DNA of 64,000 nucleotides, taken from the NCBI RefSeq assembly GCF_008704655.1, contig NZ_CP023688.1, positions 1,612,001-1,676,000 on the forward strand, in the 5' to 3' direction. This DNA comes from Streptomyces rimosus (lineage in GTDB: Bacteria; Actinomycetota; Actinomycetes; Streptomycetales; Streptomycetaceae). Position numbers and translations under genes: made by a program. A model generated the notes under the pieces. It was not told where the DNA came from. It ran no database searches and was given only the letters and a program-made list of their open reading frames with translations. Of the stretch, positions 1 through 22,129 are shown one piece after another (positions within the stretch are counted from its first letter, which is position 1; each line of letters starts with the position of its first letter).

Positions 1-3000
1 GGCGGGCCCGCCAGGCGAGGTAGCCGCGGTAGGAGGTGGCCGGGGCGAGAGCGGAGGCGTCGCCGCCCGCCGCGTAGACCTCGGCCAGCTCGGACAGCAG
101 GACCGGCATCGACCAGCCGTCCATCAGGATGTGGTGGCTGATGACGATGAGCCGGTGGCGGCCGGCGCCGAGGCGGATCAGCAGCAGCCGCAGCAGCGGT
201 GCCCGCGCCGTGTCGAAGCGGCGTTCCTGTTCGCGGGTGGCCAGTTCCTCGATGCCGGACAGGGCGTCGGCCTCGGTCAGGCCCGAGAGGTCGATCTCCT
301 TCCAGGGCAGCCGTACGTCGCGGGAGACGACCTGGACGGCCTCGCCCGTCGCCCGCCGGTGGAAGCTGGCCCGCAGCGCGTCGTGCCGGGCCAGCAGCGC
401 TTCCCACGAGGCGCGCAGGCGGGCGGCGTCCAGCGGCCCGGTCAGCTCCAGCATCCACTGGGTCTCGTAGACGTCCGGCCCCTCCTCGTCGAAGGAGGAC
501 TGGAACAGCAGCCCTTCCTGGAGGGTCGACAGCGGCCAGATGTCGGCCGGCCGCGGCACGGCGGCCTCCAGCTCCGCGACGCCGTCCTGGGTGAGGTCGA
601 GCAGCGGGAAGTCGGACGGGGTGTGGCCGCCCGCCCCGGGCCGCTCCACATGGGCGGCGAGGCCGCCCAGCATCTCCACCCACCGGCGGCCGAGCCGCTG
701 CGCCGCGGCGTCGGTCCGCCCGTCCTGCGCCTGGTGGTGCCAGGTGAGCGCGAGGGTCAGCGTGGGCCCGTCGGCTGTCTCACCGATCGTGGCCTCGGCC
801 TCCAGGGCGTACGGGGACGGCTCGCCACCGGCCGGGACGGCGCCCGACTCCACACCCTCGGCCGGCCTGCCCGAGCTGCGGAACGCGATCCGGGCAGCGG
901 GCAGATCCGACAGGGCGCGGTCCGTCCGCGGGTTGAGGTGGCGCAGCAGGCCGTAGCCCAAGCCGTCGCCGGGCACCGACCGCACCTGTTCCTTGACGGA
1001 TTTCAGCAGCGCCCCGGCGGCCGGACCGCCCGCGCGGACCTCGTCCAGGGCCGTGCCGGACACGTCCAGGCGGACCGGGTGCACGCCGGTGAACCGGCCC
1101 ACCGTACGGGAGAGGTCCACGCTTTCGACCGCTCCGGCGCCGCGCCGTCCGTCCGTTTCGATGTCGAGCAGCACGCCGGCCCCGGCGCCCGTACGCCCGT
1201 ACGCGACCGCGGCGGCCAGCGCGGCCAGCAGCACGTCGTCGGCGGTGCAGTGGAACGCGGCGGGCGCCCGGCCGAGCAGCGCTGCCGCCTGCTGCGGCGG
1301 CACCGTCCAGGCCATCCGGCGTTCCGCACCCGGCGGACGCATGCCTGCCGGTTCGAAGTCCGGCAGATCGCCGAGCCCGGCCCCGCCCTCCAACACCGCA
1401 CGCCAGTCGTCCAGTTCGGCAACGCGTTGCTCCTGCGCCGCCTGCGCGGCCAGCCGTCCCGCCCACTCCCTGAACGAGGTGCCCACCGGGCCGAGCACCG
1501 GCTGCCGCCCCTGCGCCACGGCCTCGCACGCGGACCGGAAGTCGGGGACGAGGATGCCCCAGGAAGCCGGGTCCATCACCGCGTGGTGGGCCGCGAGCAC
1601 CAGGCGGCCGGGCCCCGCGGGGCCCGCGTCCAGCCACACCACCTGGAGGTTCGCCCCGGCCGCCGGGGCCAGCCGGGCCACTGCCTCGCGGGCCGCCCGC
1701 CCGGCGGCCCGGTCGAGGTCCGCCACGGCTACGGTCTCCCGGGTGACCAGCGCGGCCGCGTCCACCGTTCCCCGGCCGGGCACGAGCAGAGACGCCCCGG
1801 TGTCACCGGCAACGGTCCGCGCGCGCAGCACGGCGTGGGTGTCCAGTACGGCGGCGACGGCGGCCGGCAGCGTGTCCGGCCGCAGGCCCTCCGGCGCTTC
1901 CAGGACCGCCCAGCGCGCGAAGCGCCCGCCCCGCGCCGCGGTCTGCGGCGTCCAGGGCACCTCGCCGGTCTCCGTGTCCGTACGCGGCGGTTCGGCCGCC
2001 GAGGGGGCCAGCCGCGCCAGTCCCTCCGGGGTCCGCTCGTCGAAGATCTGCTCAGTGGTGAGCACCAGCCCGGCGCGGCGGGCCCGCGAGGCGAGCTGCA
2101 CCGCCATGATCGAGTCGCCGCCCAGCTCGAAGAAGCTGTCCTCGGGGCCGACCCGGTCCAGGCCGAGCACCTGCGCGAACAGCGCGCACAGGGCTTCCTC
2201 GGCGGCGCCGCGCGGCTCCCGGCCGCTGCCGCGCCCGGCGAATTCCGGGGCGGGCAGCGCCTTGTGGTCGACCTTGCCGTTCACGGTCAGCGGCAGCCCG
2301 TCCAGCGGTACGAACGCCGACGGCACCATGTACTCCGGCAGCCGCCCGCCCACGAACTCGCGCAGCGCGGCGAGCAGCGCGCCGGTGTCCCGAGCCGCCC
2401 CGGCGCTGCCGCCGGACGCGCCGGTGAGCAGGGCCGGAGCGCTGTCCGTCCCGGCCGGCTCCCGCCCGCCCGGCTCGTCGCGGAACGGCTGCCCGTCACG
2501 CGCCGGGCGTCCGTCGCGGGCCGGTTCCGGCGCCTGCGCGACGACGTACGCGACCAGGCGGCGTTCGCCCGGCCGGTCCTCGCGGGCCACCACCACGGCC
2601 TCGCCGACCGCCGGGTGGGCCGCCAGCGCCGCCTCGATCTCCCCCGGCTCGATACGGAAGCCGCGCACCTTGACCTGCGCGTCCGCCCGCCCGACGAAGA
2701 CCAGCTCACCGTCGTCGGTCCAGCGCGCCATGTCGCCGGTGCGGTACATCCTCCCCCGGCCTTCGGCCGGGGGGACCCCCATGCCGGGCGCGAACGGGCA
2801 GGCCACGAAGCGTTCCGCGGTCAGCCCCGCGCGGCCCAGGTAGCCCCGGGCCAGCCCGGTACCGGCCACGTACAGTTCGCCCGTCACGCCCGGTGGCACC
2901 GGCTGGAGGAACGCGTCCAGGACGTACACCTGCCGGTTGTCCAGCGGGCGGCCGACCGGCAGCACGTCCGGTACCGGGTCGCCCGGCCGCAGCCGGTGCC

Positions 3001-5281
3001 AGGTGGCGCACAGCGCGGCCTCGGTCGGCCCGTACATGTGGCGTACGGCCACCTCGGGGCACGCCTCCCGCACCCGCGCCACGGCCGCGGCCGGGACCAC
3101 GTCGCCGCCGGTCAGCACCTCGCGCAGACCCGCGAAGCACTCCGGCGACTCCTCCGCCACCACCCGGAACGACCCCGCCGTCAGATGCACCGCCGTGACC
3201 CCCGCCGCCACGGCCGCACGGATACGCGGCCCGTCCACCACGCCCTGCCCGTCCACCACCACGCGCGCGCCCGAGACCAGCGGCACCCACACCTCGTACA
3301 GCGACGCGTCGAAGGCGTGCGGCGCGTGCATCAGCACCGCGTCGCCCGCGCCGACCGACCAGTCCCGCTGCCCGACGAGCCCGGCGACGCTGCCGTGCGG
3401 CATCGACACGCCCTTGGGCACCCCGGTCGAGCCGGAGGTGTACATCACGTACGCCAGGTCCTCGGGGCCGATCCGGACCTCCGGGCCCTCGGCCGGGCAC
3501 CCGGCCACGGCCGCCCGCACCCGCGGGTCGTCCAGCACCACGAGCGGCCCCGGCACGCCGGGCGGCACCGCGGCCCGGGTGCCGCGGGTGCACAGCACGG
3601 CCGCCGGCGCGGAGTCGGCCAGCATGACGGCCACCCGCTCCGCCGGGTACGCCGCGTCCACCGGTACGTATGCCGCGCCCGCCTTCCACACGCCGAGCAG
3701 CACCGCCGGCAGCCCGGCCGAGCGCTCCATCAGCACGGCGACGCGGCTGCCGCGGGTCACCCCGAGGCCGCTGAGGTAGCCCGCCAGGCGGCCCGCTTCG
3801 GCATCCAACTGGCCGTAGGTGACGGAGATCTCGTCGTCGGACACGGCCATGGCGCCGGGGCGGCGCGCGGCCTGGCGGGCGACCAGCTCCGGCACCGACG
3901 TGCCCGGCTCCTCGGCGCCCGTGGCGTTCCACCCCTCCACGACCAGCCCGTGTTCCGGCGCACCCAGCACACCGAACCGCCCGACGGGCGCCTCCGGCTC
4001 GGCCGCCGCCTGCTCCAGCAGCCGGACGAAGGCCCGCTGGCCCGCCCCGGCCCATTCCTGGTCGTACAGCGCCGGATCGGCTTCGAGGACGACACTCGTC
4101 CCGGCGTCGTCCGGCAGCTCGCGCACCACCACGGAGAACGCCTCGACGGGGGCGCCGGGCAGATCGTGGAGCGTGCCGCGGACCTCGCCGAAGCGCAGGC
4201 CGGTACCGATCGCCGGGACGGCCACCGACGGGCCGAAGTTGCGCCCGCCGCCCGGCCTGCCCAGCTCCGCGTGCAGGCGCTCGCCCCGGTAGCGCCGGTG
4301 CTCCAGCAGCCCGTCGATCTCGCGCTGCGCCGCGCGGGCCAGCTCCGCCAGGCTGTCGCCGGGCGCCGCGGGCAGTCGCAGCGGCAGCACGTTGGCGGTG
4401 GCGCAGGGCGTGCGCCGGGCCGCGCTGCCCGTACGGCCGTCGACCGGGAAGCTCAGCAGCGCCTCGTCCGCCCCGGTCGTGCGGCACACGAAGGTGGCCA
4501 GCGCCGCGACGACGAGCGCGCCCCGGCTCGTGCCCGTACGGTCGGCGGCCGTCCGCAGCGCCTCGCGGCCCGCGCCGGACAGCCGCCCGGACGCGTGGGG
4601 GTGGGCGTCGCGGGAGGCGGAGCGGTGGCCGGGCACGGTGGCCGGCTCCGGGCGGTCCGCGAAGTGCTCGTGCCAGTAACGGCGGTCGGCCGCGCACTGC
4701 GGCGACTCCCGGTAGGCCGTCTCCTGCTCCCACAGCTCCCGCAGCGGGGCGTGGCCGGGAGGGCTGTACGGCTCGCCGCGCAGGATCGCCGTGTAGAGCG
4801 CGGCGACGCGGCGGGCCAGCAGCGTGCTCCCGTAGTGGTCCACCAGCAGCTGGTGATGGCGCTGGTACCAGAGGTACCGGTCGGGGGCCAGCTTGAAGAG
4901 GATGTACGACGACAGACCCGCCAGGCCGCCCTCGGCGGGGTCGGCCGGGTGGCGGCCGTCCGCGCGCATCAACGCCTGCGCCGCTTCCCACGGTTCGCCC
5001 TCGGCGCCGAGATCGACGATCCGCAGGGCGCTGTCGCCCACGGCCTCGCCGATCGCCTGCGCCGGGACCCCGCCGTCCCACGTGAACCGCAGGCGCAGCG
5101 CCTCCGTCTCGGCGACGGCCTGCCGCAGCGCCCGCCGGAAGACGTCGGTGTCCAGCGGGCCCAGGACATCGGCGTACTGCCTGATGTCGTACGGCCGGGG
5201 CGGGTTCTCCGCGCGCTGGGCCAGCCACGTCCCCTCCTGGCAATCGGTCAGGGGCGCAGTGAACTGTGCCTGGCCTTCCAT
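1..5281 (-). CDS. Nonribosomal peptide synthetase, initiation module C-A-T-E plus next C domain (3' end outside window)
   Basis: At least 1,760 residues are encoded before the left edge. The ATG at 5281 follows GGGGGAG. Domains in order are: condensation (about 10-430), adenylation (about 450-1010, with [22 protein letters not shown] and NGK), carrier protein (FFELGGDSI near 1056), epimerization ([10 protein letters not shown] near 1231, [16 protein letters not shown]) and a second condensation domain ([10 protein letters not shown] near 1716). The pocket residues, aligned to GrsA by eye, read D-A-Y-H-L-G-M-L-C-K, close to 4-hydroxyphenylglycine pockets; this is inference. In the first C domain the HHxxxDG motif reads H143-Q144-L-L-V-D148-H149, so the catalytic second His and the Gly are replaced. 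The domain is probably inactive, which fits a module that starts a peptide with a free amine. It is the last gene seen in a leftward series of StrR-like regulator, exporter and NRPS. The product cannot be named from one module. Confidence 0.95.
2753..2773. repeat. REP-like palindrome inserted in frame in the NRPS adenylation domain
   Basis: A perfect 9-bp stem (CCCCCGGCC / GGCCGGGGG) with a TTC loop lies just before the YRTGD motif. It adds about ten residues ([11 protein letters not shown]) to a loop that normally reads CPFG.PGxRMYRTGD. G/C palindromes of this form are scattered through Streptomyces genomes. The reading frame is kept, so it is probably a tolerated insertion. Confidence 0.6.
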
Positions 5282-5320
5282 GTCTCCCCCTTCGACGGCA
5301 AACGTTGCTCGCTCTGCCTG

Positions 5321-5358
5321 CCGCGCCACCGCTGCGGTGGTCCGCTGCGGTGGCGCGG
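5321..5358. terminator. Perfect 12-bp inverted repeat between exporter and NRPS genes
   Basis: CCGCGCCACCGC and GCGGTGGCGCGG pair perfectly across a 14-nt loop, with no T-tract. It lies between the exporter stop (5395) and the NRPS start (5281), so it could partly terminate or attenuate read-through from the exporter into the NRPS gene. Confidence 0.5.
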
Positions 5359-5394
5359 TCTTCCCCGTGTACGCGGCCGCCGGGCGGCCGGAGG

Positions 5395-7461
5395 TCAGCG
5401 GCCGCCGGGGCCCTGACCGTTGGTGTGCCACACGCCGCCGCCCGGGGCGCCTCCGCCGTCGGGCCCGTCCCCGTCGAAGAAGACCATGTGTCCCGGGCCC
5501 CCCGGCGCCATCTGCGGCGCGGGCTCGCGCTCCGCCACACGCTCGGGCACGGCCGGTTCCGGCCCGCCGCCCGCGGCCTGCCGGGCGAACTGCGTGTGGT
5601 ATAGCTCCGCGTAGAGCCCGCCGGCCGCCAGCAGCTCGTCGTGCGTGCCCCGCTCGCGGATACGGCCCTCGTCGAAGACCAGGATCTGGTCGGCCTCGCG
5701 GATGGTGGACAGCCGGTGGGCGATGACGACGGACGTACGGCCGCGCAGCGCCGTCTTCAGGGCCCGCTGGATGGCCGCCTCGGACTCCGAGTCCAGGTGC
5801 GCGGTGGCCTCGTCCAGCACCACGATCGAGGGCGCCTTCAGCAGCAGCCGGGCCAGCGCGAGGCGCTGCTTCTCGCCGCCGGAGAGCCGGTAGCCGCGGT
5901 CACCGGCCACGGTGTCGAGGCCGCTGGGCAGCGAGCTGATGGTGTCCCAGATCTGCGCGGCCCGGCACGCCTCGATCAGCTCCTCCTCGGTGGCGCCGGG
6001 GCGGGCGTAGGTCAGGTTGTTGCGGATGGTGTCGTGGAAGAGGTGGGCGTCCTGCGACACCACGCCGACGGTGCTGCGCAGCGAGTCGAGGGTGACGTCG
6101 CGCAGGTCCTGCCCGGCGATGCGGACACTGCCCGCCGTCGGGTCGTACAGCCGCGACACCAGATGCGTGGCGGTGGTCTTGCCGACGCCGGACGGGCCGA
6201 CCAGGGCGGTCAGCTTGCCGGACGGCACCGTGAAGCTGACGTCGTGCAGCACCTCGGGCGTTTCCTTGGCCCGCTCGTCGGCGGGCAGCGCGTTCGACTC
6301 CAGGGACGCCAGGGAGACCTCGCTGGCCGGCGGGTAGCGGAAGGACACGCCCTCGAAGGCGACCTCGGGGGCCGCCGCGCCGTCCGGCGCGGGCAGATCG
6401 ACGGCGCCTTCGCGCTCGGTGATCAGCGGCTTGAGGTCGAGCAGTTCGAAGATCCGGTCGAAGCTGACCATCGCGGTGTGCGCGTCGCCCTGCACACTGG
6501 ACAGCTGGGTGATCGGCCCGTACAACCGCGCCAGCAGGGCGGCCAGTGCCACCAGCGTGCCGACCTGGAAGGTCCCGTTGACCACCAGGGCGCCACCGAG
6601 GCCGTAGACCAGCGCGGTGATCACGGCGGCCAGCAGCGTCATGATGATGACCGTCAGACGGCTCAGCACGGTCCAGGTGATGCCGACCTCGCGCACCTTG
6701 TCCGCGCGCTTCGCGAACAGCTCCGCCTCCTCGCGGGGGCGGCCGAAGAGCTTGGAGAGCATCGCGCCCGCCACGTTGAAGCGCTCGCCGATGGTGGCGC
6801 CCATCTCCGCGTTCATCTGCATCTGTTCACGGGAGTAGCGGGTCAGCCGCCGGCCGACCAGCGCGCCGGGAATCATGAACAGCGGCAGGATCAGCAGCGC
6901 GAGCAGACTGACCAGCCACGACAGGTAGAACATGCTGCCCAGCACCAGGACCAGCGTGAACACGCTGGACAGCGAGCCGAGGAGGGTGCCGAGCGCGTGC
7001 TGCGCGCCCACCACGTCCGTGTTGAGGCGGCTGACCAGGGACCCGGTCTGGGTACGGGTGAAGAAGGCCAGCGGCTGGCGCTGTACGTGCGCGAACGCCT
7101 GGACCCGCAGGTCGTAGCTGACGCCCTGGCTGATCCGGCCCGAGTACCAGCTCTGGGCGAGCTGGAGCAGCGCGTCGAGCACGGCGAGGCCCGCGACGAC
7201 GAGGGAGACGACGGTCAGCGTCGAGGTGTCCTTCTGCAGGATGCCGACGTCGACGATCTCCTTCAGCAGCAGCGGGGTCGAGACGATGATGAGCGAATCG
7301 AGCAGCGTCAGCACCAGCAGCAGGACCGATTCGCGGGAATGCGGTTTCGCGTACGACAGGATGCGGCGGAGCGTTCCCGGCCGGAGCCGCTGCGCAGCCG
7401 TGGAATTGCCCGGGTCGTCGTACGTCGCCAGCATGATGCCCGAGCCTTGACCGGCAAACAT
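5395..7461 (-). CDS. ABC transporter, fused permease/ATPase (multidrug or peptide exporter)
   Basis: This 688-residue protein has an N-terminal six-helix exporter domain and a C-terminal ATPase. The ATPase shows Walker [10 protein letters not shown] (about residue 424), signature LSGGEKQR (about 525), Walker [12 protein letters not shown] and an IAHRLST H-loop. The ATG at 7461 is chosen because AGGAGGT stands 10 nt upstream; a longer reading back to 7551 has no such site. The C-terminal tail after the ATPase is rich in Gly and Pro. It sits between the StrR-like regulator and the NRPS gene, the place taken by the dedicated exporter in glycopeptide-type clusters. It probably exports the peptide product as a homodimer in the membrane. 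The substrate is inferred from context only. Confidence 0.93.
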
Positions 7462-7940
7462 ATCAGCGGAGACCTCCTGGGTCGGGATTCCTGGTACCTG
7501 GTTCCTGATCATTCGGCCGACCGCATGCGAAGGGCGGCGCCACAAGGGCACCTGTTCCGTGGTGTCGGCAAGCTTTCGTCAGAACCGGCCGGCCGCTTTG
7601 CGGTGGCCGTCTTTTTCCCCGAAGGGGTGCGCCGTTGCGACGATACCCATGTCGTCTCCCACCAGCCAGGCCGATATGCCCGGGGCGGCGCACGGGGTTT
7701 CACACCGTCACTGGATTTCTCTCCCGCGTACCCAAGAAATTCCGAGGCAGGTCACCGGCCCGCACCGCACCGATTCACCGGCGAATTGCTCGGGTTCGGC
7801 GGCCGGGCGGCCCGGCGGGCACCGCTTTCGCGGGCACCCGCCGGTACCGACCGTACGCGCTTTTCCACCGCGGCCGGTTGGACGGTGCGGAGTCCGTCCA
7901 ACCGGTCGCTTTCCTCACTTGGACACGGCCCGGTCGCCTG
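7462..7940. other. Intergenic region between regulator and exporter
   Basis: This gap of about 480 bp lies downstream of the regulator and upstream of the exporter. It must hold the exporter/NRPS promoter if that unit is transcribed separately. I looked for the StrR-type palindrome (GTTCGA, gap of 11, TCGAAC) and did not find a convincing copy. A 76-codon open frame at 7463-7693 on the minus strand has no family resemblance and I do not call it. Confidence 0.4.
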
Positions 7941-8936
7941 TCACACGGTTTCGACGACGTTCCGCTCGGCCCGCTGGGCGAAATCCGCCCAGATATCCGC
8001 ACACTCACGGGCCAGTTGGGCGATGATGCCGCTGCAGTGCGGAGGAATGTTTGCCATGATGTCGTCCCACTCCTCCGCGCTGATCGTGTGAATGCTCAGC
8101 AGCCGCAGCAGCGTGCGCCCCGTCTCGCTGAACCGCAGGGCCGGGTCGACCTTCAGGCGGCGTACCACCACCGTCCGGTCCTGCGCCGGCAGCCGGGCGG
8201 GGACCGCAGCGGCGTCGCCGTCGCGGGGGCCGCTGTGCCCGGTGGGCTCCTGCTCCCGGGACGTACGGGCCGGCCGGCCCCGCCCCTTGAGCAGCGGCTC
8301 CTCGCCCCGGCGCAGCCGGTTGCGTACATCGCGCGCCGTCTCGGGCGAGATCCCGGACGCCCGCGCGATCTGCCGCAGCGACAGACCGGGGTTCTCGGCG
8401 ATGAGGTTGCCGGCGAGCCGGCGGCCCTCGGCGCCGTTCAGCGGCCGGAAGCGGCCGTCCTGGCCGATCCTGCCGCGCCCCGCCGCGGCGGCGCCGGACA
8501 CCCGGCGGCGGATCTCCGCGACGGTGCCCGGTGCGATCCCGGTGACCGAGGCGATCATCCGGTCCGACCACAACGGGTGGCTGCGGATGATGCGTTCGGC
8601 CGCGCTCTTGCGGTCCGCCATGGACAGCGGAAGGCCGTGCGTGATGTTCGATTCGACGGCGAGGACGAAGGCGTCGGCCTCGTCGCCGTCGAAGAATCTC
8701 ACCGCGATCTTGTCGTCACCGCGGCGTTGTGCTGCTCGTAATCGGTGCACTCCGTCGATCACCCGCATCGTCGCGCGGTGCGCGATGATGGGCGGCAGCG
8801 GCGCCTGTGCCACCGCCAGCATCTCGACGTGCTCCGTATCTTCCCCGGATATGCGCGGAGAGCCGGCCACCGACAGTGAATCGATCTCCACTTCGACGAC
8901 CGTCTGCATATCCACGTGCGCCTGCCCAGGTTCCAC
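7941..8936 (-). CDS. StrR/ParB-like pathway-specific transcriptional activator
   Basis: This 331-residue protein has a ParB-type N-terminal domain (DGVHRLRAAQRRGDDKI, followed by SNITHGLPLSMADRKSAAERII), a central helix-turn-helix (LSLRQIARASGISPETARDVRNRL) and a C-terminal region ending in GIIAQLARECADIWADFA. This matches the StrR, Bbr and Tei15* family of DNA-binding activators of antibiotic clusters. The GTG at 8936 is chosen because GAGGAG precedes it by 6 nt; an upstream TTG (8972) and an ATG nine codons in are alternatives. It lies upstream of the exporter and NRPS in the same direction, so those genes are its likely targets. The family assignment is firm; the targets are inferred. Confidence 0.9.
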   Translation of the reverse strand: MEPGQAHVDMQTVVEVEIDSLSVAGSPRISGEDTEHVEMLAVAQAPLPPIIAHRATMRVIDGVHRLRAAQRRGDDKIAVRFFDGDEADAFVLAVESNITHGLPLSMADRKSAAERIIRSHPLWSDRMIASVTGIAPGTVAEIRRRVSGAAAAGRGRIGQDGRFRPLNGAEGRRLAGNLIAENPGLSLRQIARASGISPETARDVRNRLRRGEEPLLKGRGRPARTSREQEPTGHSGPRDGDAAAVPARLPAQDRTVVVRRLKVDPALRFSETGRTLLRLLSIHTISAEEWDDIMANIPPHCSGIIAQLARECADIWADFAQRAERNVVETV

Positions 8937-9341
8937 TCCAGGCTCCTCGCGTTGTGATTCCCCCGTGCGCAAGCTCGCGCTGGCGCACCCTAACGACTTA
9001 CGGCAGGCCCGTGCATCGGCGATGTCCGCCGGAGAGAGACATCACCGGGCCGTTCAGGCGTAGAACCCACCCCCGCTTCTCTTCCTTCTTCTGCAACTCC
9101 CGGCGGGGGAGGAGGGTTCCCGCACCGCAGGATCGCAGGAAACTCGCGACGCGAAGCGGAACACATATGCAAACAAACCATCTTCCCCCATACAGATACA
9201 TACTCTAACAGTGCCTTTATCTACGGGGCACCCCTACCTGACGTAGCTGAACCTGCAATGTCGCATTCCGCGCGGCATCGGGAACGGCGCATTCCCGAAG
9301 ATCCCTCGCCGCCGAAAAGATATGTGCATTCGCCACCTGGG
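8937..9341. other. Upstream region of the StrR-like regulator, AT-rich patch
   Basis: This 405-bp gap contains a patch near 9165-9245 far richer in A and T than its surroundings. It is the likely promoter zone of the regulator on the minus strand. No single -35/-10 pair stands out. A 13-codon open frame (ATG at 9168) on the plus strand is not called. Confidence 0.4.
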
Positions 9342-9851
9342 TCATTCGCTCCGCTTGGGGCGCGGGGCACCCGCGACCCGCCCCTCCCGCCCGCGCTCCG
9401 TGCGGACCCAGCCGCCCGCGCCCCGCTCCGCCGCCCTGGACGCCGGCGCCGCGTACGACCACCCGTGACGGCGCATCATCTTGCGCACCCCCTGGATCGT
9501 GTACGTGACGTGGAAGCGGCGCGCGATCACCGTCTGGATGCGCTCCAGCGTCCACCGCCGGTCCGGCCAGCCGTAAGCCGCGGGCCCCCTGGCGAGTTCC
9601 GCCTCCAGCTGGCGGAACTGGGCCGGGCTCAGCCGCGGCCGGGACGCCGGCCCCTTCGAGCCCAGGGCCCGCGCCCCCTCGCTCCGCCAGGATTTGCGCC
9701 ACCGCTGCACCGACCGCACGCTCACCCGCAGATCCCTGGCGATCACCGCGTTGCTCTCGCCCCGCGCGAACCGCTCGACCGCCTGCAGCCGCAGCCGTTC
9801 GCGGAACTCCCGCCGCTCGGCGGTCAGTCCGCCGCCCTGTGCGTATCGCAT
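9342..9851 (-). mobile_element. IS630-type transposase remnant (helix-turn-helix half only)
   Basis: The 169-residue frame starts MRYAQGGGLTAERREFRERL. It carries the paired helix-turn-helix and winged-helix part of IS630 transposases (AVIARDLRVSVRSVQRWRKSW, AYGWPDRRWTLERIQTVIARRFHVTYTIQGVRKMMRRHGW). It stops where the catalytic DDE domain should begin, after RAAERGAGGWVRTERG. No DDE domain was found in other frames nearby, and no terminal inverted repeats are obvious, so this is a fragment. Free-standing HTH halves of this type also occur as annotated genes, so a retained DNA-binding role is possible but unsupported. It lies between the regulator and the DAHP synthase gene. Confidence 0.75.
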
Positions 9852-9967
9852 CTCTCCGACATACCGCAAGATTCGCGATGCGTCAGCCTTGCCCGACATC
9901 ACCGGTTCAGCGCCGGTACCCCTATCGCGGTCTGCCCGGTGCACCGGGGAACACCCGTCCCCCGGCG

Positions 9968-10027
9968 CCCCACCCGTCCGGCCGCACGTGCGGAAATTGG
10001 CCTGTACCAAGCGGCCGGACGGTGGGT
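9968..10027. terminator. Inverted repeat downstream of the DAHP synthase gene
   Basis: CCGTCCGGCCGC (9974-9985) and GCGGCCGGACGG (10011-10022) pair perfectly, with five more base pairs beyond a one-base bulge. The loop is 25 nt. Its position 3' of the DAHP synthase gene suits a terminator, though no T-tract follows. Confidence 0.45.
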
Positions 10028-10162
10028 CGTGTGCGCTTTCGTCCGAGCGCCCGTCGGGGTACCCCTACCGACGGCGTACGCCCGGCCGGCGCCGGAGCCC
10101 CAGCGCGCCGTCCGCACCTCCGCGCGCCCCGCACCCTCGAAGCGCTCGAAACGGCAGCCGCG

Positions 10163-11218
10163 TCAGGAGGCGGCGATCCCCGCCGGGGTCCGCGGCACCG
10201 GCTGTGTGAGCGAACGGCCCATCAGCGGCGACAGGACGGTGGCCGTCTTGGCGATCTCCTGCATGTCGGCGTCGAGCAGCGCCTGGTCGCCGTCGCACAG
10301 CGCCGCCTCCGGCGCCGGGTGCACATCGATCATCACGCCGTCCGCACCCACCGCCAGCGCGGCGCGCATCAGCGGCAGCACCAGCTCGCGCCGGCCGCCC
10401 GAGTGCGACGGGTCCACGATCACCGGCAGGTGCGACAGCCGCTGGACCACCGGCACCGCGCTGATGTCCAGCGTGTTGCGGGTACGCGTCTCGAACGTGC
10501 GGATACCGCGCTCGCACAGCACGATGTCCAGGTTCCCGCGCTGCGCGATGTACTCGGCGGCCATCAGCCACTCGTCGATGGTCGCGCCGAACCCGCGCTT
10601 GAGCAGCACCGGCCGGCCCGCCGAGCCCACCGCCTGCAGCAGCGCGAAGTTCTGCATGTTACGGGTGCCGATCTGGAGCATGTCCGCGTAGGAGGCGACC
10701 AGTTCGACGCTGCCGGGATCGATGACCTCGGTGACCACCGGAAGCCCGGTCTCCTCGCGTACGTCGGCGAGGATGCGCAGCCCTGCCTCGCCCAGCCCCT
10801 GGTAGGCGTACGGCGAGGTCCGCGGCTTGTACGCGCCGCCGCGCAGCAGCGAGGCCCCCGCGGCACGGGCCATCCGCGCCGCGGTGAGCGTCTGCTCCGG
10901 CGACTCGACGGCACACGGTCCCGCGATCACGGACAGGGTGTCGGGCCCGATCGGCACACCGCCGACCCGGACGACCGACCGGGCGGGGTGGTGCTCCCGG
11001 CTGACGAGCTTGTGCGGCACGGAGATCCGTACGACGTCCAGGACCCCCTTGCGGCTGCGCAGGTTGAGCGCCTCGAACTCGTCCACGTCCCCGACGAGCC
11101 CGACGATCGTACGGGTCACCCCCCGGCTGACGAAGGCATCACCGCCCGCCGCGCGCACCAGGCCGACGACGGCGTCGACATCCTCCTGCGTGGCCCCCGG
11201 GGCCATCACCACCACCAT
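10163..11218 (-). CDS. 3-deoxy-7-phosphoheptulonate (DAHP) synthase, type I-beta with ferredoxin-like domain
   Basis: This 351-residue enzyme condenses phosphoenolpyruvate with erythrose 4-phosphate, the first shikimate-pathway step. The first 75 residues form the ACT/ferredoxin-like regulatory extension (start MVVVMAPGATQEDV). The barrel follows with IAGPCAVES, LRGGAYKPRTSPYAYQG, IGTRNMQN, LLKRGFGAT, LCERGIRTFE and VIVDPSHSGGRRE. The ATG at 11218 has GGGAGGAA 6 nt upstream. Clusters for hydroxyphenylglycine peptides often carry an extra DAHP synthase to raise tyrosine supply; the location beside a StrR regulator and an Hpg-like NRPS suggests that role. It could also be a primary-metabolism copy, but housekeeping Streptomyces enzymes are usually the plant-like type II form. 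Confidence 0.92.
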   Translation of the reverse strand: MVVVMAPGATQEDVDAVVGLVRAAGGDAFVSRGVTRTIVGLVGDVDEFEALNLRSRKGVLDVVRISVPHKLVSREHHPARSVVRVGGVPIGPDTLSVIAGPCAVESPEQTLTAARMARAAGASLLRGGAYKPRTSPYAYQGLGEAGLRILADVREETGLPVVTEVIDPGSVELVASYADMLQIGTRNMQNFALLQAVGSAGRPVLLKRGFGATIDEWLMAAEYIAQRGNLDIVLCERGIRTFETRTRNTLDISAVPVVQRLSHLPVIVDPSHSGGRRELVLPLMRAALAVGADGVMIDVHPAPEAALCDGDQALLDADMQEIAKTATVLSPLMGRSLTQPVPRTPAGIAAS

Positions 11219-11591
11219 GAGGGTTCCTCCCGTTGAGTGGGCCGGCACCGGCCGGCCGGATGTGGTTGCGAGAAACCGGCGCACGCCCGCACCGCCGTGC
11301 GCCGGTCCGTCTGCTGGAGCTCCCCGGGACCGTCCGGCCGCACCGCGGCGCCCGTGCGCGAACCCCCGCCGCGCCGCCGCGATGCACGACAACTGCGGCT
11401 GTTTTCAAGGGAGTTCGCGGTATGTGGTATTGCGGTCAATCATTCCATAGGTGGGGGGCGGGGTGTCCAACCGCGCAACGCCGGGGCCGGGCCGATCGTG
11501 GGTGCGTACCGGCTGGGGCGAAGGGCGGGCCCGTACCGGCCGAGGGCGCGCCCTCAACAACCGGAGAAGGGGCCCCGCCCTCCTCTTCCGG
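11219..11591. other. Intergenic region with 14-bp palindrome
   Basis: This gap lies between the LAL regulator stop and the DAHP synthase start, both on the minus strand. It holds a perfect palindrome GAGGGCGCGCCCTC (11542-11555), probably part of a terminator for the LAL gene. Near 11430-11450 is an AT-richer stretch with TTGACC on the minus strand, a possible -35 for the DAHP synthase gene; no good -10 follows. Confidence 0.4.
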
Positions 11592-14537
11592 CTAACCGGC
11601 CCGCAGACAGTCACGCGATAAGCCGTCGCCGCACCCGGCAGCCCCGGTCCCCTCCTCGGCGTCCAGGTTCAGCCGGGTCGCCAGGTCCGTACGGCGCTGC
11701 ACGCCCAGCTTCCGGTAGGCCCGGGTCAGGTGCTGCTCCACCGTACTGATCGTGATGAACAGCGCCCCGGCTATCTGCCGGTTGGTGTACCCGCGCGCCG
11801 CGAGCGCCGCGACGCGCAGTTCCGCGCCGCTCAGCCCGGTGGCCGAACGCCCCGCCCCGGGCCGCTCGGGCCGCTCGGGCGGGCAGGCGCTCGCCGCGCC
11901 GACCGGCGACGCCTTCAGGACGGGCGCCTTGATGCCGCACTCCCGCATCAGCTGCTGCGCCTTGCGCGCCGCCACCCGGGCCCGGCCGTCCTCGTTCCTG
12001 TCCCAGTAGCTGTACGACAGTTCCGCCATCGCGTACGCCAGCTCCAGCCGGTGGCCGCTGCGCTGGAGGATGTCCAGGGCCTCGGCGAGGAGCCGCGGGC
12101 GGTCCGCGCGCTCGGCCAGCGCCGCCAGCACCCGCAGCGCGACCCCGCGCGTCCACGGCGGCCGGGGGCCGGGACGGGTCAGTTCCTCCTCCAGGAGGGA
12201 CCGGGCGCGGCGGTCGTCCCCCAGCGAGACGTACACCTGCGCGGCGTCGGAGCGCCACGGCACCAGCGCGGACAGGTCGAGACGCCAGCGCGCCATCAGG
12301 TCCCCGCACCGGTGGAAGTCCTCCAGCGCGGCGTACGGGCGGCCCGCGGCGAAGTGGTAATGGCCGCGCGCCCAGAGGTACAGCAGCCCGCCGGGCGTCC
12401 GGAACGCCGCGTCGGGCACGGGAATCCTCAGGTGCGCCGCGGCCTCGTCCAGCCGCCCCATGGCAGCCTTCGCATACAGGAGCGCGGCAACCGGAGCCGC
12501 GACGGCCGCTCCCCACCCTTCGGGCGGGACGACGGTCAGCGCGGTGTGCGCCGACTCCTCCGCCGCGGCCAGCTCGCCGAGTCTGATCTCGGTGTACGCC
12601 TTGGCCGTGGCGAACAGCGACTGCCACATCGGCGCCCGCCGCTCACGCGCCTCCGCCAGCAGGATGTCGCACCACCGGGAAGCCTCCGGCAGCCCGTCGG
12701 CGACGATGAGGGCCACCAGGGCCGCCAGCCCCGCCGCCGGGGTCCGGTCCTCCGGCCGGGTCTCCTGGAGAATCCGTTCCGCACGGACGACCGCGTCCCC
12801 GGCCGCACCCTGGTCCAGTACGGAAGCCATCAGGGCGAGGGCCCGCTGCTGCGTACCGCACTCGGCCACCAGACCCGCGATCCGGCCACCGGCCCCCACG
12901 CCTCCGTACGGCCCCGGGGCCACCGCGGCCCCGCACCGGGCCGCCACCCCGGGGTACCCATAGGCGAACCAGAGCCGGGCCGACTCCACCACCTGCCGCT
13001 CCCCCGCCCCACCAACTCCCCACCGCCCAGGGGCCACAGCCCCCTCCGCAACCTCCCCCAGCTCCTCCTTCTCCTCCAGCCCCTCCCTCTCCCCCAACCC
13101 CTCCACCACCCGAAGCACCTCCAGCGCCTCATCCGCCCTGCCGAACCACAGCAGATGGCCGATCAGCGCCTTCATGTCCCGGGGAGTCAGGCGCCCGGCC
13201 AGCGCGGCGTCGGTGAGGGCGGGCAGGTACCGTACGGCGGCGGACGGATCCACCCGCCACCCGGCCCGTACCAGCGCGATCCGCACCCTGAGCACCTGCC
13301 GCTCGTCCGCGCAACTGTCCCGGGCCACGCGCAGGCAGTCCAGCGCCCGCCCCACTTCGTTACGAGCCAGTGCCGCCTCGGCCGCCTCCAGGAGGGCGGG
13401 CAGCACCCAGGGGGCGTCCACGTTCTCCGCGGCAACCAGATGGCGGGCCAGTACGGTCGACGACGCCCCGTACTCGTACAGGACCCGGGCGACGCGGGCC
13501 TCCAGGCGCGGCGAGCGCGGCGGCTCCACCCGGCGCAGCACCGCCGTCCGCCCCGCCTCGTGACGGAACCGGCCGGCGGCCAGCAGCCCCATGTCGTGCA
13601 GGGCGCGCAGGCTGCGTTCGCCCGCCGCGCGCGGGACCCCGAGCAGCTCTGCGGGCTCGGCCCGTTCGCCGCGCGGCCCGAGCACCGCCAGCACCCAGGC
13701 CGTGCTGCGGGTGAGGCGATCACTGCGGTTCAGGCACAGCGCGACGGCGCGTTCGTACGCCTCGCCGGGCACCAACTCGGCACCTCCGGCGCGGTCCGCG
13801 TCCGCGTAATCGTCCAGCAGCGCCCGCATCAGCAGCGGACTGCCACCGCTCAGCCGGTGGAATTCCGATACGGGCGGCGCCGAACGCCGCCCTTTCCGCC
13901 CGTCGGCCAGCATGGCGGCGATACCGTCCCGCGGCAGCGCACCGACATGCAGAAAACGGCATACCGGCCGCCGCAGCAATTCCCGCCGCGTACGACTGTC
14001 GTCCCACTCCGAACCGCTGCTTTCCCCGAGAACCACCAGAATCCTGCTGACATCCAGCCGTCGCACGACATGCAGCAGACATTCCACGGAATAGGCGTCG
14101 GCCAGATGCACGTCATCGACGCACACCACCACCGGCCGTTTCCTGGCCCGGGCGAAGAGGATTCCGCACAGCCGCGGAAACACGTCCGCGACCACCTCCG
14201 CGGGAACGGCGCCGTCGGCGCCCCGCACCGGCACGCCGCCCGCGACCGGCGACGTCAGCGGCCACACCGCCGGCTCCCCGTCCGCGCCGGGCGACCCGGC
14301 GGTCCGCAGCAGCTGCCCCACCACGCGCAGCGGCACGTCCTTGTCCGCCGCGGTCGCCGTGGCCTGCAACCACACCGCACCGGCCGGCGCCGCCCGCTCC
14401 CGGAACGCGCGCAGCAGCGCCGTCTTCCCGCCGCCCACCGCACCGCTGACCAACGCCGCCCCACCACGCCCGGCCGCACAGGCATCGAGCATGCCCTCCA
14501 GGACGGAGAGCTCCGTGTCCCGTTCCACCAACTTCAT
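11592..14537 (-). CDS. LAL-family (large ATP-binding LuxR) transcriptional regulator
   Basis: This 981-residue protein starts MKLVERDTELSVLE with an AAA-type ATPase (Walker A GAVGGGKTALL near residue 35, Walker B VVVCVDDVHLAD). A long TPR-like middle follows, then a C-terminal LuxR helix-turn-helix (LSGAELRVAALAARGYTNRQIAGALFITISTVEQHL split over residues about 905-945). That is the layout of LAL activators. It lies in the same orientation as the DAHP synthase gene and the NRPS set, at the outer edge of the cluster, so control of that cluster is likely. An odd Glu/Gly-rich stretch near residues 473-515 comes from a pyrimidine-rich tract on the opposite strand and looks like a grown linker. 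Confidence 0.93.
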   Translation of the reverse strand: MKLVERDTELSVLEGMLDACAAGRGGAALVSGAVGGGKTALLRAFRERAAPAGAVWLQATATAADKDVPLRVVGQLLRTAGSPGADGEPAVWPLTSPVAGGVPVRGADGAVPAEVVADVFPRLCGILFARARKRPVVVCVDDVHLADAYSVECLLHVVRRLDVSRILVVLGESSGSEWDDSRTRRELLRRPVCRFLHVGALPRDGIAAMLADGRKGRRSAPPVSEFHRLSGGSPLLMRALLDDYADADRAGGAELVPGEAYERAVALCLNRSDRLTRSTAWVLAVLGPRGERAEPAELLGVPRAAGERSLRALHDMGLLAAGRFRHEAGRTAVLRRVEPPRSPRLEARVARVLYEYGASSTVLARHLVAAENVDAPWVLPALLEAAEAALARNEVGRALDCLRVARDSCADERQVLRVRIALVRAGWRVDPSAAVRYLPALTDAALAGRLTPRDMKALIGHLLWFGRADEALEVLRVVEGLGEREGLEEKEELGEVAEGAVAPGRWGVGGAGERQVVESARLWFAYGYPGVAARCGAAVAPGPYGGVGAGGRIAGLVAECGTQQRALALMASVLDQGAAGDAVVRAERILQETRPEDRTPAAGLAALVALIVADGLPEASRWCDILLAEARERRAPMWQSLFATAKAYTEIRLGELAAAEESAHTALTVVPPEGWGAAVAAPVAALLYAKAAMGRLDEAAAHLRIPVPDAAFRTPGGLLYLWARGHYHFAAGRPYAALEDFHRCGDLMARWRLDLSALVPWRSDAAQVYVSLGDDRRARSLLEEELTRPGPRPPWTRGVALRVLAALAERADRPRLLAEALDILQRSGHRLELAYAMAELSYSYWDRNEDGRARVAARKAQQLMRECGIKAPVLKASPVGAASACPPERPERPGAGRSATGLSGAELRVAALAARGYTNRQIAGALFITISTVEQHLTRAYRKLGVQRRTDLATRLNLDAEEGTGAAGCGDGLSRDCLRAG

Positions 14538-15626: not shown

Positions 15627-17318
15627 ATGCCCGACGACACCCCGAACCCCGACACCCCCATCTCCGGCGGCCACCTCGTCGCCAAAGCCCTCAAAGCGGA
15701 GGGCGTGGACGTGATCTACACCCTCTGCGGCGGTCACATCATCGACATCTACGACGGCTGCGTCGACGAGGGCATCGACGTGGTGGACGTGCGGCACGAG
15801 CAGGTTGCCGCGCATGCCGCGGATGCCCATGCGCGGATCACCGGGCGGCCGGGGTGTGCGGTGGTCACCGCGGGGCCCGGGACGACGGACGCCGTGACCG
15901 GGGTGGCCAATGCCTTACGGGCCGAGTCGCCGATGCTGCTGATCGGCGGGCAGGGGGCGCTCGGTCAGCACAAGATGGGGTCTCTTCAGGACCTGCCGCA
16001 TGTCGAGATGATGACGCCGGTCACGAAGTTCGCGGCGACCGTGCCGGACACCGCGCGCGTCGCCGACATGGTCTCGATGGCGTTCCGGGAGTGCTTCCAC
16101 GGGGCTCCCGGGCCGTCCTTCCTGGAGATCCCCCGGGACGTGCTGGACGCGAAGGTGCCGCGCGGTACGGCGCGGGTTCCCCGGGCGGGGCACTACCGCG
16201 CCTCGACGCGTTCGGCGGGTGATCCGGACGCCGTCGAGCGGCTGGCCGAGCTGCTCGTACGGTCCGAGAAGCCGGCCGTTCTGCTCGGCGGACAGGTGTG
16301 GACGACGCGCGGTACGGACGCGGCGGCCGCTCTCGTACGGGACCTGAACCTGCCCGCCTACATGAACGGCGCGGGCCGCGGCTCGCTGCCGCCCGGTGAT
16401 CCGCACCACTTCCAGCTGTCCCGCCGGCACGCCTTCACGCACGCCGATCTGATCGTGGTCGTCGGGACGCCGTTCGACTTCCGGATGGGGTACGGGAAGC
16501 GGCTTTCGCCGGCCGCGACCGTGGTGCAGATCGATCTGGACTACCGCACGGTCGGCCGGAACCGGGATGTCGACCTGGGGATCGTGGGCGACGCGGGGCT
16601 GGTGCTGGCCGCCGCCGCGCAGGCCGCGTCGGGGCGGCTGGACACCGGGGCGGCCCGGCGCAAGGAGTGGATCGAGGAGCTGCGGGCCGTCGAGGAGGCC
16701 GCGGTGGCGAAGCGGCTGCCGCTGCTGCGCTCGGACGCGGCGCCCATCCACCCGTACCGCCTGGTCGCCGAGATCGACGACTTCCTGACCGAGGACTCGG
16801 TCTTCATCGGGGACGGCGGCGACATCGTCACCTTCTCGGGGCAGGTGGTGCGGCCGAAGGCGCCGGGGCACTGGATGGACCCGGGGCCACTGGGCACGCT
16901 CGGCGTCGGTGTGCCGTTCGTGCTGGCGGCGAAGCGGGCCCAGCCGGACAAGGAGGTCGTGGCGCTCTTCGGGGACGGCGCGTTCTCGCTGACGGGGTGG
17001 GACTTCGAGACGCTGGTCCGCTTCGGCCTGCCGTTCGTGGGGATCGTCGGCAACAACTCCTCGATGAACCAGATCCGGTACGGGCAGCGCGCGAAGTACG
17101 GCGAGGCGCGGGAGCGGATCGGCAACACGCTGGGCGATGTGCCGTACGACGCCTTCGCGCGGATGCTCGGCGGGTACGGCGAGGAGGTCCGCGACCCCGC
17201 GCAGATCCGGCCGGCGCTGGAGCGCGCCCGGCGCTCCGGCCTGCCCTCGCTGATCAACGTCTGGGTGGACCCGGACGCGTACGCCCCCGGAACCGTCAAC
17301 CAGACCATGTACAAGTGA
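15627..17318 (+). CDS. oxc: Thiamine-diphosphate enzyme, probable oxalyl-CoA decarboxylase
   Basis: This 563-residue enzyme has the three-domain layout of the acetolactate synthase/oxalyl-CoA decarboxylase family. The N-terminal pyrimidine domain has the catalytic Glu in [16 protein letters not shown], the centre is a Rossmann-like domain, and the C-terminal diphosphate domain has [15 protein letters not shown] ending in VGNNSS. By sequence alone it could be called acetolactate synthase-like. The gene is followed 10 bp later by a formyl-CoA transferase gene, then by an acyl-CoA synthetase and an oxalate/formate-type antiporter. That context favours conversion of oxalyl-CoA to formyl-CoA. The ATG at 15627 is chosen over an out-of-frame ATG 7 nt earlier; a GGGA site lies upstream. 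Confidence 0.85.
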
Positions 17319-17328
17319 GGAGTCGCTG

Positions 17329-18585
17329 ATGGGCACCGCTCACGAGGACGGTCCCGGCGCCAAGGCCCTGACCGGGGTCCGGGTGCTGGACATGACACAT
17401 GTGCAGTCCGGCCCGTCCGCCACCCAGCTGCTCGCCTGGCTCGGCGCGGACGTGGTCAAGCTGGAGGCGGTCACCGGCGATGTCACCCGCGGTCAGCTGC
17501 GCGACATCCCGGACGTGGACTCGCTCTACTTCACGATGCTCAACTGCAACAAGCGCAGCATCACCCTGAACACGAAGACCGAGCGGGGCAAGGAGCTGCT
17601 GAGCGAGCTGATCCGGCGCTCGGACGTCCTGGTGGAGAACTTCGGGCCGGGCGCCGTGGACCGGATGGGCTTCCCGTGGGAGCGCGTCCGGGAGATCAAT
17701 CCGCGCCTGGTGTACGCGTCGATCAAGGGCTTCGGCGAGGGCCCGTACACGCGGTTCAAGGCGTACGAGGTCGTCGCGCAGGCCATGGGCGGGGCGATGT
17801 CGACCACCGGGTTCGCGGACGGGCCGCCGCTGGCGACCGGTGCGCAGATCGGCGATTCGGGGACCGGCGTGCACTGCGTCGCCGGCATCCTCGCCGCCCT
17901 CTACCAGCGCGAACGCACCGGGCGCGGGCAGCGCGTCCAGGTCGCGATGCAGCACGCGGTGCTGAATCTGTGCCGCGTCAAACTGCGCGACCAGCAGCGC
18001 CTGGAGCGCGGTCCGCTGCCGGAGTACCCCAACGACGGCTTCGGGGACACGGTGCCGCGCAGCGGCAACGCGAGCGGCGGCGGGCAGCCCGGCTGGGCGG
18101 TGCGGTGCGCGCCCGGCGGCCCCAACGACTACGTATATGTGATCGTGCAGCCGGCGGGCTGGCGGCCGCTCGCGGAGCTGATCGGGCGGCCCGAGCTGGC
18201 CGAGGACCCCGAGTGGGCGACGCCGGCCGCGCGGCTGCCGAAGCTGGCGAAGATGTTCCAGCTCATCGAGGAGTGGAGCAGCACGCTGCCCAAGTGGGAG
18301 GTGCTGGACCGGCTGACCGCGCACGCCATCCCGTGCGGCCCGGTGCTGTCCACCAAGGAGCTCGTCGAGGACGCGTCGCTGGCCGCGGACGGCATGGTCG
18401 TGCGGGTCCGGCATCCGCAGCGCGGCACGTTCACCACCGTCGGATCGCCGCTGAAGCTGTCCGACTCCCCCGTCGAGATCGACCGCTCGCCGCTGCTCGG
18501 CGAGCACAACGAGGAGGTGTACGGGGGCGAACTGGGGCTCGGCGCGGAGGAATTGCGGCTGCTCAGGGAGGACGGGGTCATCTGA
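17329..18585 (+). CDS. frc: CaiB/BaiF family CoA-transferase, probable formyl-CoA:oxalate CoA-transferase
   Basis: This 418-residue protein is a class III CoA-transferase. It shows [33 protein letters not shown] at the N-terminus (residues 14-46, Frc-like QSGP), [11 protein letters not shown], and the catalytic aspartate D176 in QIGDSGTG. It would move CoA from formyl-CoA to oxalate, feeding oxalyl-CoA back to the decarboxylase. GAGGAG lies 7 nt before the ATG. Its stop codon overlaps the next ATG by one base (TGATG), so the genes are translationally coupled. Succinyl-CoA-using relatives cannot be excluded from sequence. Confidence 0.9.
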
Positions 18586-20771: not shown

Positions 20772-22129
20772 CGACGCAGGACGTACGGCACCCGGGCCGG
20801 GCCGCGTTCACCGAGGTCCGGGACGCGCAGGGCCGGATCTACCGGCTGGGCGAGACAGACCGGCAGCTGCTCGGCCGCCCGCGGTGGACCATGGTGCTGC
20901 TGCCCTGGATCGCGATGCTCGGCATCAGCATCTTCGAGTACGCCTACGGGGCCGCCGAATCGACCCTCGCCACGGCCCACCACTGGACGCACACCGGCAC
21001 CTTCTGGGTGCTCAGCGTCTGGATCTTCTGCCAGGCGGCGGTGGCCTTCCCCGCGGGCAGGCTGCGGGAGAAGGGCCTGCTCAGCAGCCGGGCCGCGATG
21101 CTGTGCGGGTCGGTGCTGTCACTGCTGGGCTTCCTCAGTCTGAGCCACGCCACGGACATCCGGTGGGCGGTCGCCGGCTTCGGCATGCTGGGCGGCACCG
21201 GCGCCGGCCTGGTCTACGCGACCTGCATCAACACGGTCGGCAAGTGGTATCCGGAGCGGCGCGGCGGCAAGACCGGCTTCGTCAACGGCGGCTTCGCGTA
21301 CGGCGCCGTGCCGTTCATCTTCCTGTTCTCCTACGGCTTCGACTCCGGCGACTACCAGGCCGTTCTCGACCTGGTCGGCCTGTATGTGCTGTTGCTGACC
21401 GCTGTGGCGGGCCTGTTCTTCAAGGACCCGCCGAAGAACTGGTGGCCCGCGCACGTCGACCCGCTGGCCGTGCCGCGCGACGCCCGTACCTCCACGGCAC
21501 TGCGCAGGAACCCGCCCGCGGCAGCGCAGTTCACGCCGCGCGAGGCCGTCCGTACGGGCATGCTGCCGCTGATGTGGGTCTGCCTGCTGTGCACCGCCGG
21601 CGTCTCGATCTTCGGGATCTCCTTCCAGGTGCCGTTCGCCAGGGAGGCCGGGTTCGGGCCGCTGGTGGCCGCGTCCTCCATGGGCATCATGTCGGTGGTC
21701 AACGGCACGGGCCGGGGCGTGGTCGGCTGGCTCTCGGACCGGCTGGGACGGCGGCCGACCCTGACGTATGTGTGCCTGGTCCTCGGGCTGGCCCAGTTCG
21801 GCGTCCTGTGGGCGGGCGAAAGCGCCAACCAGCCGCTGTTCCTCTTCTTCGCCTTCATATCCGGCTTCGGCGGCGGCGCTTTCTTCCCGCTTTTCGCGGC
21901 CCTGGTCCCCGACTATTTCGGCGAGAACAACAACGCGTCGAACTACGGCCTCGTCTACAGCTCGAAACTCGTCTCCGGCCTCCTGGGCGGCGGTCTCGGC
22001 GCGTCGGTGGTCGCGGCGTGGGGGTACGAGGGCGCGTACGCGGTGGCGGGGTGCGTGGGGCTGCTGGCGGCGGGACTGTCGCTGTTGTTGCGGCGGCCGG
22101 CGGGAAAAGGGGCGGCCGTGGCGGGGTAA
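20768..22129 (+). CDS. OFA-family MFS transporter, probable oxalate/formate antiporter
   Basis: This 453-residue protein has 12 predicted membrane segments. Its N-terminal half shows YAYGAAESTLATAHHWTHTGTFWVLSVWIF, with LGGTGAGLVYATCINTVGKWYPERRGGKTGFVNGGFAYG between helices 4 and 6. Its C-terminal half has SVVNGTGRGVVGWLSDRLGRRPT and YFGENNNASNYGLVYSSKLVSG. This is the OxlT-like OFA signature. The GTG start overlaps the synthetase stop (GTGA). With the three enzymes upstream it completes an oxalate uptake and degradation unit in which import may be coupled to formate release. Only the family is certain. Confidence 0.9.
   Translation: MTTQDVRHPGRAAFTEVRDAQGRIYRLGETDRQLLGRPRWTMVLLPWIAMLGISIFEYAYGAAESTLATAHHWTHTGTFWVLSVWIFCQAAVAFPAGRLREKGLLSSRAAMLCGSVLSLLGFLSLSHATDIRWAVAGFGMLGGTGAGLVYATCINTVGKWYPERRGGKTGFVNGGFAYGAVPFIFLFSYGFDSGDYQAVLDLVGLYVLLLTAVAGLFFKDPPKNWWPAHVDPLAVPRDARTSTALRRNPPAAAQFTPREAVRTGMLPLMWVCLLCTAGVSIFGISFQVPFAREAGFGPLVAASSMGIMSVVNGTGRGVVGWLSDRLGRRPTLTYVCLVLGLAQFGVLWAGESANQPLFLFFAFISGFGGGAFFPLFAALVPDYFGENNNASNYGLVYSSKLVSGLLGGGLGASVVAAWGYEGAYAVAGCVGLLAAGLSLLLRRPAGKGAAVAG

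Follow-up and report, generated by a model that had tools for sequence, protein, structure and literature searches.

The left edge of the DNA analysed here very probably forms the right end of a type V glycopeptide cluster of the complestatin/isocomplestatin type in Streptomyces rimosus, which would extend over approximately C1:1570562-1626537. The genome is a single contig of 9,361,154 bases, whose positions carry the prefix C1:, and the window, a stretch of 64,000 nucleotides, corresponds to C1:1612001-1676000; genes were called over C1:1530001-1676000 and assigned to families by Pfam. Window positions 1-14537 are coded entirely on the minus strand and hold NRPS module 1, an ABC exporter, a StrR-like activator, a DAHP synthase and an LAL regulator (Table 1). 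This set had originally been read as the edge of an Hpg-peptide cluster, and module 1, the exporter, the regulators and the DAHP synthase, together with the genes further left, bear that reading out; the observation itself is confirmed, and its interpretation as a whole is partly supported. The locus, an ordinary complestatin-type cluster, is already known and annotated in print. Table 4 of PMC9045324 gives cluster 18 of S. rimosus ATCC 10970 as an NRPS cluster at 1568818-1619165 with the entry 'Isocomplestatin (93)' and an empty metabolite column, and isocomplestatin production by ATCC 10970 is raised in that paper as a possibility. Its text assigns chymostatins to 'BGC no. 18', which its table places at 35. 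Because the cluster is in print, no new compound class is involved; the gains are a corrected prediction for the first residue, a cluster border moved outward by about 7 kb and a hint that the N-terminal C domain of complestatin synthetases, dead by motif, may serve a non-catalytic function.

Table 1. Features at the left edge of the window (window coordinates).
Feature	Position	Strand	Basis
ComA-type NRPS front part, modules 1 and 2	1..5281	-	gene call, Pfam, domain parse; continues to C1:1607919, 3120 aa
C1, N-terminal starter-type condensation domain, catalytic His2 to Gln ([11 protein letters not shown])	3920..5281	-	motif alignment; PDB sequence and fold matches
A1 adenylation domain, code DAYHLGMLC(K), Hpg-type	2405..3889	-	code, identity comparison
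T1 carrier domain, LGGDSI	1997..2224	-	domain parse
E1, epimerization domain, corrupt by motif	593..1975	-	motifs against E2-E5; raised dN/dS
C2 start, intact SHHILMDG; remainder left of the window	1..556	-	motif, domain parse
MsbA-type ABC exporter; adjoins the ComA-type gene in relatives too	5395..7461	-	
StrR-like (ParB-N/HTH) activator	7941..8936	-	Pfam; syntenic in L010-L012 at 92-99%
169-aa winged-HTH protein	9342..9851	-	resembles IS630 transposase N-terminal half, below model cut-off
Cluster DAHP synthase, type I, FXD domain	10163..11218	-	near BagF/FevY, below that model's cut-off
LAL regulator, AAA_16 and LuxR GerE; apparent right cluster border	11592..14537	-	syntenic in L010-L012 at 78-92%

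The position of the right border is indicated by synteny. With 17 of 62 loci examined, the gene block LAL-DAHP-HTH-StrR-ABC-ComA is syntenic in Streptomyces sp. CB02923 (L010), S. monomycini (L011) and S. rimosus NRRL WC-3904 (L012), and its conservation as a whole in these relatives places the border near window position 14537 (C1:1626537), so that the cluster apparently reaches about 7 kb to the right of the published border at 1619165. Within this block, the activator belongs to the ParB-N/HTH family, listed members of which include a 'streptomycin biosynthesis protein'; the name StrR-like, already used in the original prediction, is our reading of this family membership, and in the PDB the protein has weak ParB matches only (E 0.05-0.09). 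The 169-aa HTH gene is kept in the same position at 79-92% in all three relatives, which led us to reject it as a recent IS remnant, and its product is perhaps a domesticated regulator. Sister clusters with LAL, StrR-like, ABC and ComA-like genes are present in Streptomyces sp. HD, Streptomyces sp. cf386 and S. bicolor (L032, L041 and L047), where two other genes (217 and 425 aa) occupy the place of the DAHP synthase and HTH genes; the S. bicolor ComA-like protein is without E1, and its modules 1 and 2 carry codes of the Hpg and Trp types.

To the right of the LAL gene, a plus-strand set of four genes (15627-22129) encodes a TPP enzyme, a formyl-CoA transferase, a CoA-ligase-type protein and an MFS transporter. 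The formyl-CoA transferase matches TIGR03253 above cut-off (676 bits), while the oxalate/formate-antiporter matches of the MFS protein and the best model for the TPP enzyme (15627-17318), acetolactate synthase, remain below theirs. A role for the TPP enzyme as a benzoylformate enzyme of the cluster was considered and dropped, since its three neighbours make an oxalate-type operon likelier. The set looks like one for oxalate/formyl-CoA metabolism that would mark the right edge of the cluster. Outside the cluster, window positions 26624-29980 (plus strand) encode an 1118-aa SARP-like regulator with a BTAD domain and weak AAA/TPR matches. Across the genome the condensation-domain family has 106 matches, and several further large NRPS lines are present.

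Gene calls, Pfam and domain parsing resolve the assembly line into seven modules distributed over four NRPS proteins, which carry modules 1-2 (C*-A-T-E*, C-A-T-E; 3120 aa), module 3 (C-A-T-E; 1543 aa), modules 4-6 (C-A-T-E, C-A-T-E, C-A-MT-T-E*; 4961 aa) and module 7 (C-A-T-X-(A remnant)-TE; 2185 aa), where an asterisk marks a domain that is corrupt by motif. The methyltransferase of module 6 was found as Methyltransf_12 by Pfam, and the adenylation remnant that follows the X domain was detected with a local A-domain HMM (g48 residues 1524-1909, 191 bits). PDB matches of the X domain are confined to the X stretch and comprise the teicoplanin X domain 4tx2 (481 bits) and chain B of 6m7l (457 bits), which we take to be a kistamicin structure whose chain A is kistamicin OxyA.

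The leftward genes, followed to C1:1570562, encode MbtH, a Na+/H+ antiporter, an FAD halogenase, two P450s, a ferredoxin, Hmo-like and HmaS-like proteins, an aminotransferase and a prephenate dehydrogenase, and the expectation that Hpg genes would lie to the left is thereby borne out. The HmaS-like protein has as its best PDB match 2r5v/PCZA361.1, presumably HmaS, at 485 bits, followed by an HPPD at 303 bits; the HPPD model itself finds a better match at another genomic position, C1:5877491. The Hmo-like protein matches the 4-hydroxymandelate oxidase 5zzp (448 bits). The aminotransferase has only generic class I/II family matches, and the name HpgT therefore rests on its position and context. 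The first P450 is OxyB-like, with 4tx3 as its nearest PDB entry (471 bits); nearest to the second are 3o1a, an 'Oxy protein' that we take to be OxyE (425 bits), and chain A of 6m7l (382 bits). No type III PKS (PF00195) was found above the Pfam cut-off genome-wide, the best match scoring 21.5 bits against 27, which makes Dpg unlikely as a building block. Among the 24 genes g33-g56, Pfam detected neither van genes nor a histidine kinase or response regulator of a VanRS-like pair, and g33 has no family match at all.

By analogy with the complestatin class, from which we infer cross-links, chlorination, regulation and product, these genes suggest a pathway. HmaS, Hmo, the HpgT-like aminotransferase and prephenate dehydrogenase would make Hpg, with the DAHP synthase raising shikimate flux; the four NRPS proteins would build Hpg-Trp-Hpg-Hpg-Hpg-(N-methyl)Tyr-Hpg; the X domain would recruit the two Oxy-type P450s for cross-linking; and the single FAD halogenase would chlorinate, with the TE releasing the product, the ABC protein exporting it, and the StrR-like and LAL proteins switching the cluster on. 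The number and positions of chlorines and the atropisomer are beyond what sequence can tell.

The residues of this predicted peptide were read from the A-domain codes, with code positions assigned by PheA numbering. Rereading A1 gave the same Hpg-like pocket as before, DAYHLGMLC plus the Lys of an NGK motif, and A1 is 72-75% identical to A3, A4, A5 and A7, the other Hpg-type domains, compared with 50-51% to A2 and A6. The codes of modules 3, 4, 5 and 7 are DAFHLGLLS, DVFHLGLLC, DAYHLGLLC and DAFHLGLLC, and that of module 6 is DASHTAAVC, predicted to select Tyr on the basis of known codes and of the methyltransferase domain in the module. Complestatin, which we take to consist of Hpg, Trp and Tyr only and to carry N-methyl-Tyr, is consistent with the predicted peptide. 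The Hpg- and Trp-type codes were calibrated on the corbomycin producer WAC01529 (L023), whose first three A domains read DVFHLGLLC, DALSVGTVM and DVAAIGQII and whose product begins Hpg1-Dpg2-Trp3 (PMC7567792). Module 2, read as DVGHVGEVT in one alignment and DVGVVGEVT in others, so that one position is alignment-dependent, was assigned to Trp through likeness, not identity, to the calibrated Trp code. Among complestatin-type proteins the A1 code occurs as DAYHLGMLC, DAFHLGMLC and DAFHLGLLC. An aspartate at the first code position holds the substrate amine, and A domains for keto acids usually lose it. This residue is kept in all seven complestatin-type A1 domains, which speaks for Hpg as the loaded substrate, and direct loading of 4-hydroxybenzoylformate by A1 was accordingly dropped.

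Two other products of the locus were weighed against this assignment. The same type V line could make a new congener that differs in chlorination, methylation or the N-terminus. This variation in the A1 code would allow for it, as would the room for drift in the spread of C1 identities among the matches listed (99% in one, 87-93% in six complestatin-type homologues) and the lack of an assigned product for the S. rimosus cluster in Table 4 of PMC9045324. However, in 7/7 complestatin-type proteins the module-1 codes are Hpg-type and the module-2 codes identical, and the methyltransferase, two P450s and single halogenase match the published complestatin class; we consider a new congener unlikely, though worth bearing in mind. 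The original prediction also named glycopeptide and feglymycin-like clusters together. Its glycopeptide side holds, in the form of complestatin, but 'feglymycin-like' is too loose for a locus that has seven modules, an X domain followed by an A remnant and two Oxy-type P450s and that shows no trace of Dpg biosynthesis. Taken alone, the Hpg codes, StrR-like protein, ABC exporter and DAHP synthase would suit a feglymycin-like line or another non-cross-linked Hpg peptide; the seven modules, the X domain and the two Oxy-type P450s contradict this, as does the lack of a type III PKS above cut-off in the genome, and a product of this kind, dropped on the first three of these grounds, is scarcely conceivable here.

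Within the complestatin-type reading, the first module stands out because both domains that flank its A-T core are degenerate by motif. C1 carries H-Q-LLV-D-H in place of HHxxxDG, and at motif level the original prediction of an inactive-C starter holds. We aligned this motif across the best 120 of at least 508 homologues. In that set the second His is replaced by Gln and the motif Gly by His in 7/7 complestatin-type proteins, the 13 next-nearest sister proteins all have Asn or Asp at the first His and keep the second, and the N-terminal C domains ranked 21-120 retain both His (100/100). The substitution of the first His in the sisters indicates that C1 is odd in those proteins too. In a sample of 199 genomes from the genus, including the one analysed here, C1 occurs at 94-100% identity in three and at 48-53% in six more. 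The epimerization domain proposed earlier is present, but corrupt by motif: compared with E2-E5, E1 reads HHAVMDP, ETDGRR against EGHGRE, and FRSSG against FNYLG. Among the same best 120 of at least 508 homologues it is degenerate in 7/7 complestatin-type proteins and absent from nine of the 13 sisters (P0008, P0010-P0012, P0014, P0015, P0017, P0018 and P0020); in the other four (P0009, P0013, P0016 and P0019) it is nearer the consensus, with the motif Gly replaced as well. Part of this finding was known before, since Rausch 2007 (PMC1894796) describes certain complestatin domains, unnamed in the text and figure legend of its section 26, as 'inactive and corrupt'.

Selection analysis separates the two domains. 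We estimated dN/dS by the Nei-Gojobori method for the six pairs formed by the window, L010, L011 and L012, pairs that share sequences. C1 gave values of 0.23-0.31 against 0.22-0.31 for C2, with 0.15-0.27 for the A1 core, 0.25-0.34 for A2 and 0.23-0.34 for E2; C1, dead by motif, is thus held like an active domain, and its rate is above that of the A1 core in five of the six pairs. E1 gave 0.38-0.54, the highest value among C1, C2, A1 core, A2, E2 and E1 in every pair, and its amino-acid identity is 71-85% versus 85-94% for C1. Still higher values than for E1 were obtained for the A1 linker in two of the six pairs and for T1 in one, and the bootstrap intervals of E1 and the other domains overlap in part in the five pairs compared, the pair with L074 covering C1 and A1 only. 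The rate excess of E1 is modest, and E1 looks relaxed.

The fate of residue 1 offers a possible explanation for both observations. C1 and E1 would act on its alpha-amine and alpha-carbon, and catalysis there may have become useless once the residue ended as an alpha-keto acyl group, since a residue 1 that has neither alpha-amine nor stereocentre would leave an N-acylating C domain and an epimerase with nothing to act on, in agreement with the decay of both within the clade. The keto acyl group of complestatin is presumably residue 1. Complestatin is an alpha-ketoamide (PMC8154582), and with E1 corrupt throughout the complestatin-type proteins the earlier expectation of D-Hpg as the first residue is unsupported. 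The plain answer to the retention of C1 would be an interface role within the module. More speculatively, and in our estimate quite improbably, C1 would be a retained pseudo-enzyme. It would have given up its catalytic His at the point where residue 1 turned into an alpha-keto acyl group, and purifying selection would preserve it as a platform for docking or gating, much like the P450-recruiting X domain, on which carrier-bound Hpg1 is turned into the keto acid, perhaps through the cluster aminotransferase. If true, C1 would join the X domain as a second C-type domain that a glycopeptide line retains without using it for condensation, and its role may bear on the origin of the complestatin alpha-keto cap. 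In the mainly open-access literature searched, no study addressing what the complestatin N-terminal C domain does was found. C1 could instead be a working acyltransferase that N-acylates residue 1, in lipo-initiation or with an aryl cap, as its purifying selection and its nearest solved relatives, the RzmA and CDA starter domains, might suggest; the replacement of both the second His and the motif Gly throughout the complestatin-type proteins, set against the intact pair of His in all 100 N-terminal C domains ranked 21-120, makes such an activity highly improbable.

Comparison with known systems places these features in context. In sequence, the PDB entries closest to C1 are starter domains, that of RzmA at 232 bits and that of CDA at 181 bits; CDA-C1 and RzmA also head the matches to its predicted fold, among which the teicoplanin X domain ranks 44th; this model is of moderate quality (mean pLDDT 72, pTM 0.66). 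The HHxxxDG motifs of CDA-C1 and RzmA are active, whereas C1 shares their starter fold and N-terminal position and carries H-Q-xxx-D-H. The feglymycin line has 13 modules. Feglymycin differs further as an uncrosslinked peptide (PMC8698665), in contrast to the seven modules, X domain and two Oxy-type P450s found here. Kistamicin shares the type V class, two Oxy P450s and an X domain, but has Dpg as residue 3, a module 1 without an A core and a module 4 without E (PMC6565677). Corbomycin from Streptomyces sp. WAC01529 is likewise type V, and its line has an N-terminal starter-type C domain from the family of C1 (49% identity), an Hpg-type A1 and a Trp-type A domain; it differs in being a nonapeptide with Dpg (PMC7567792), in keeping the catalytic second His of C1 (DHLLMD) and in having no E1. 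In its account of type V clusters, PMC8698665 expects no van genes and describes VanRS-like two-component pairs, once generally and once of 'multiple' clusters; because this wording varies, the pair, absent here by Pfam, was not counted as defining type V. Our assignment to the complestatin type draws on seven modules ending in X and TE, the A remnant, the Hpg genes, two Oxy-type P450s, a halogenase and the module 6 methyltransferase, with no Dpg pathway and no van genes. The likeness to S. lavendulae com, established by published traits and not by sequence, lies in the seven modules, the E domains in modules 3 and 6, and the X domain followed by an A remnant, an arrangement that Rausch 2007 (PMC1894796) describes only for com among six glycopeptide lines.
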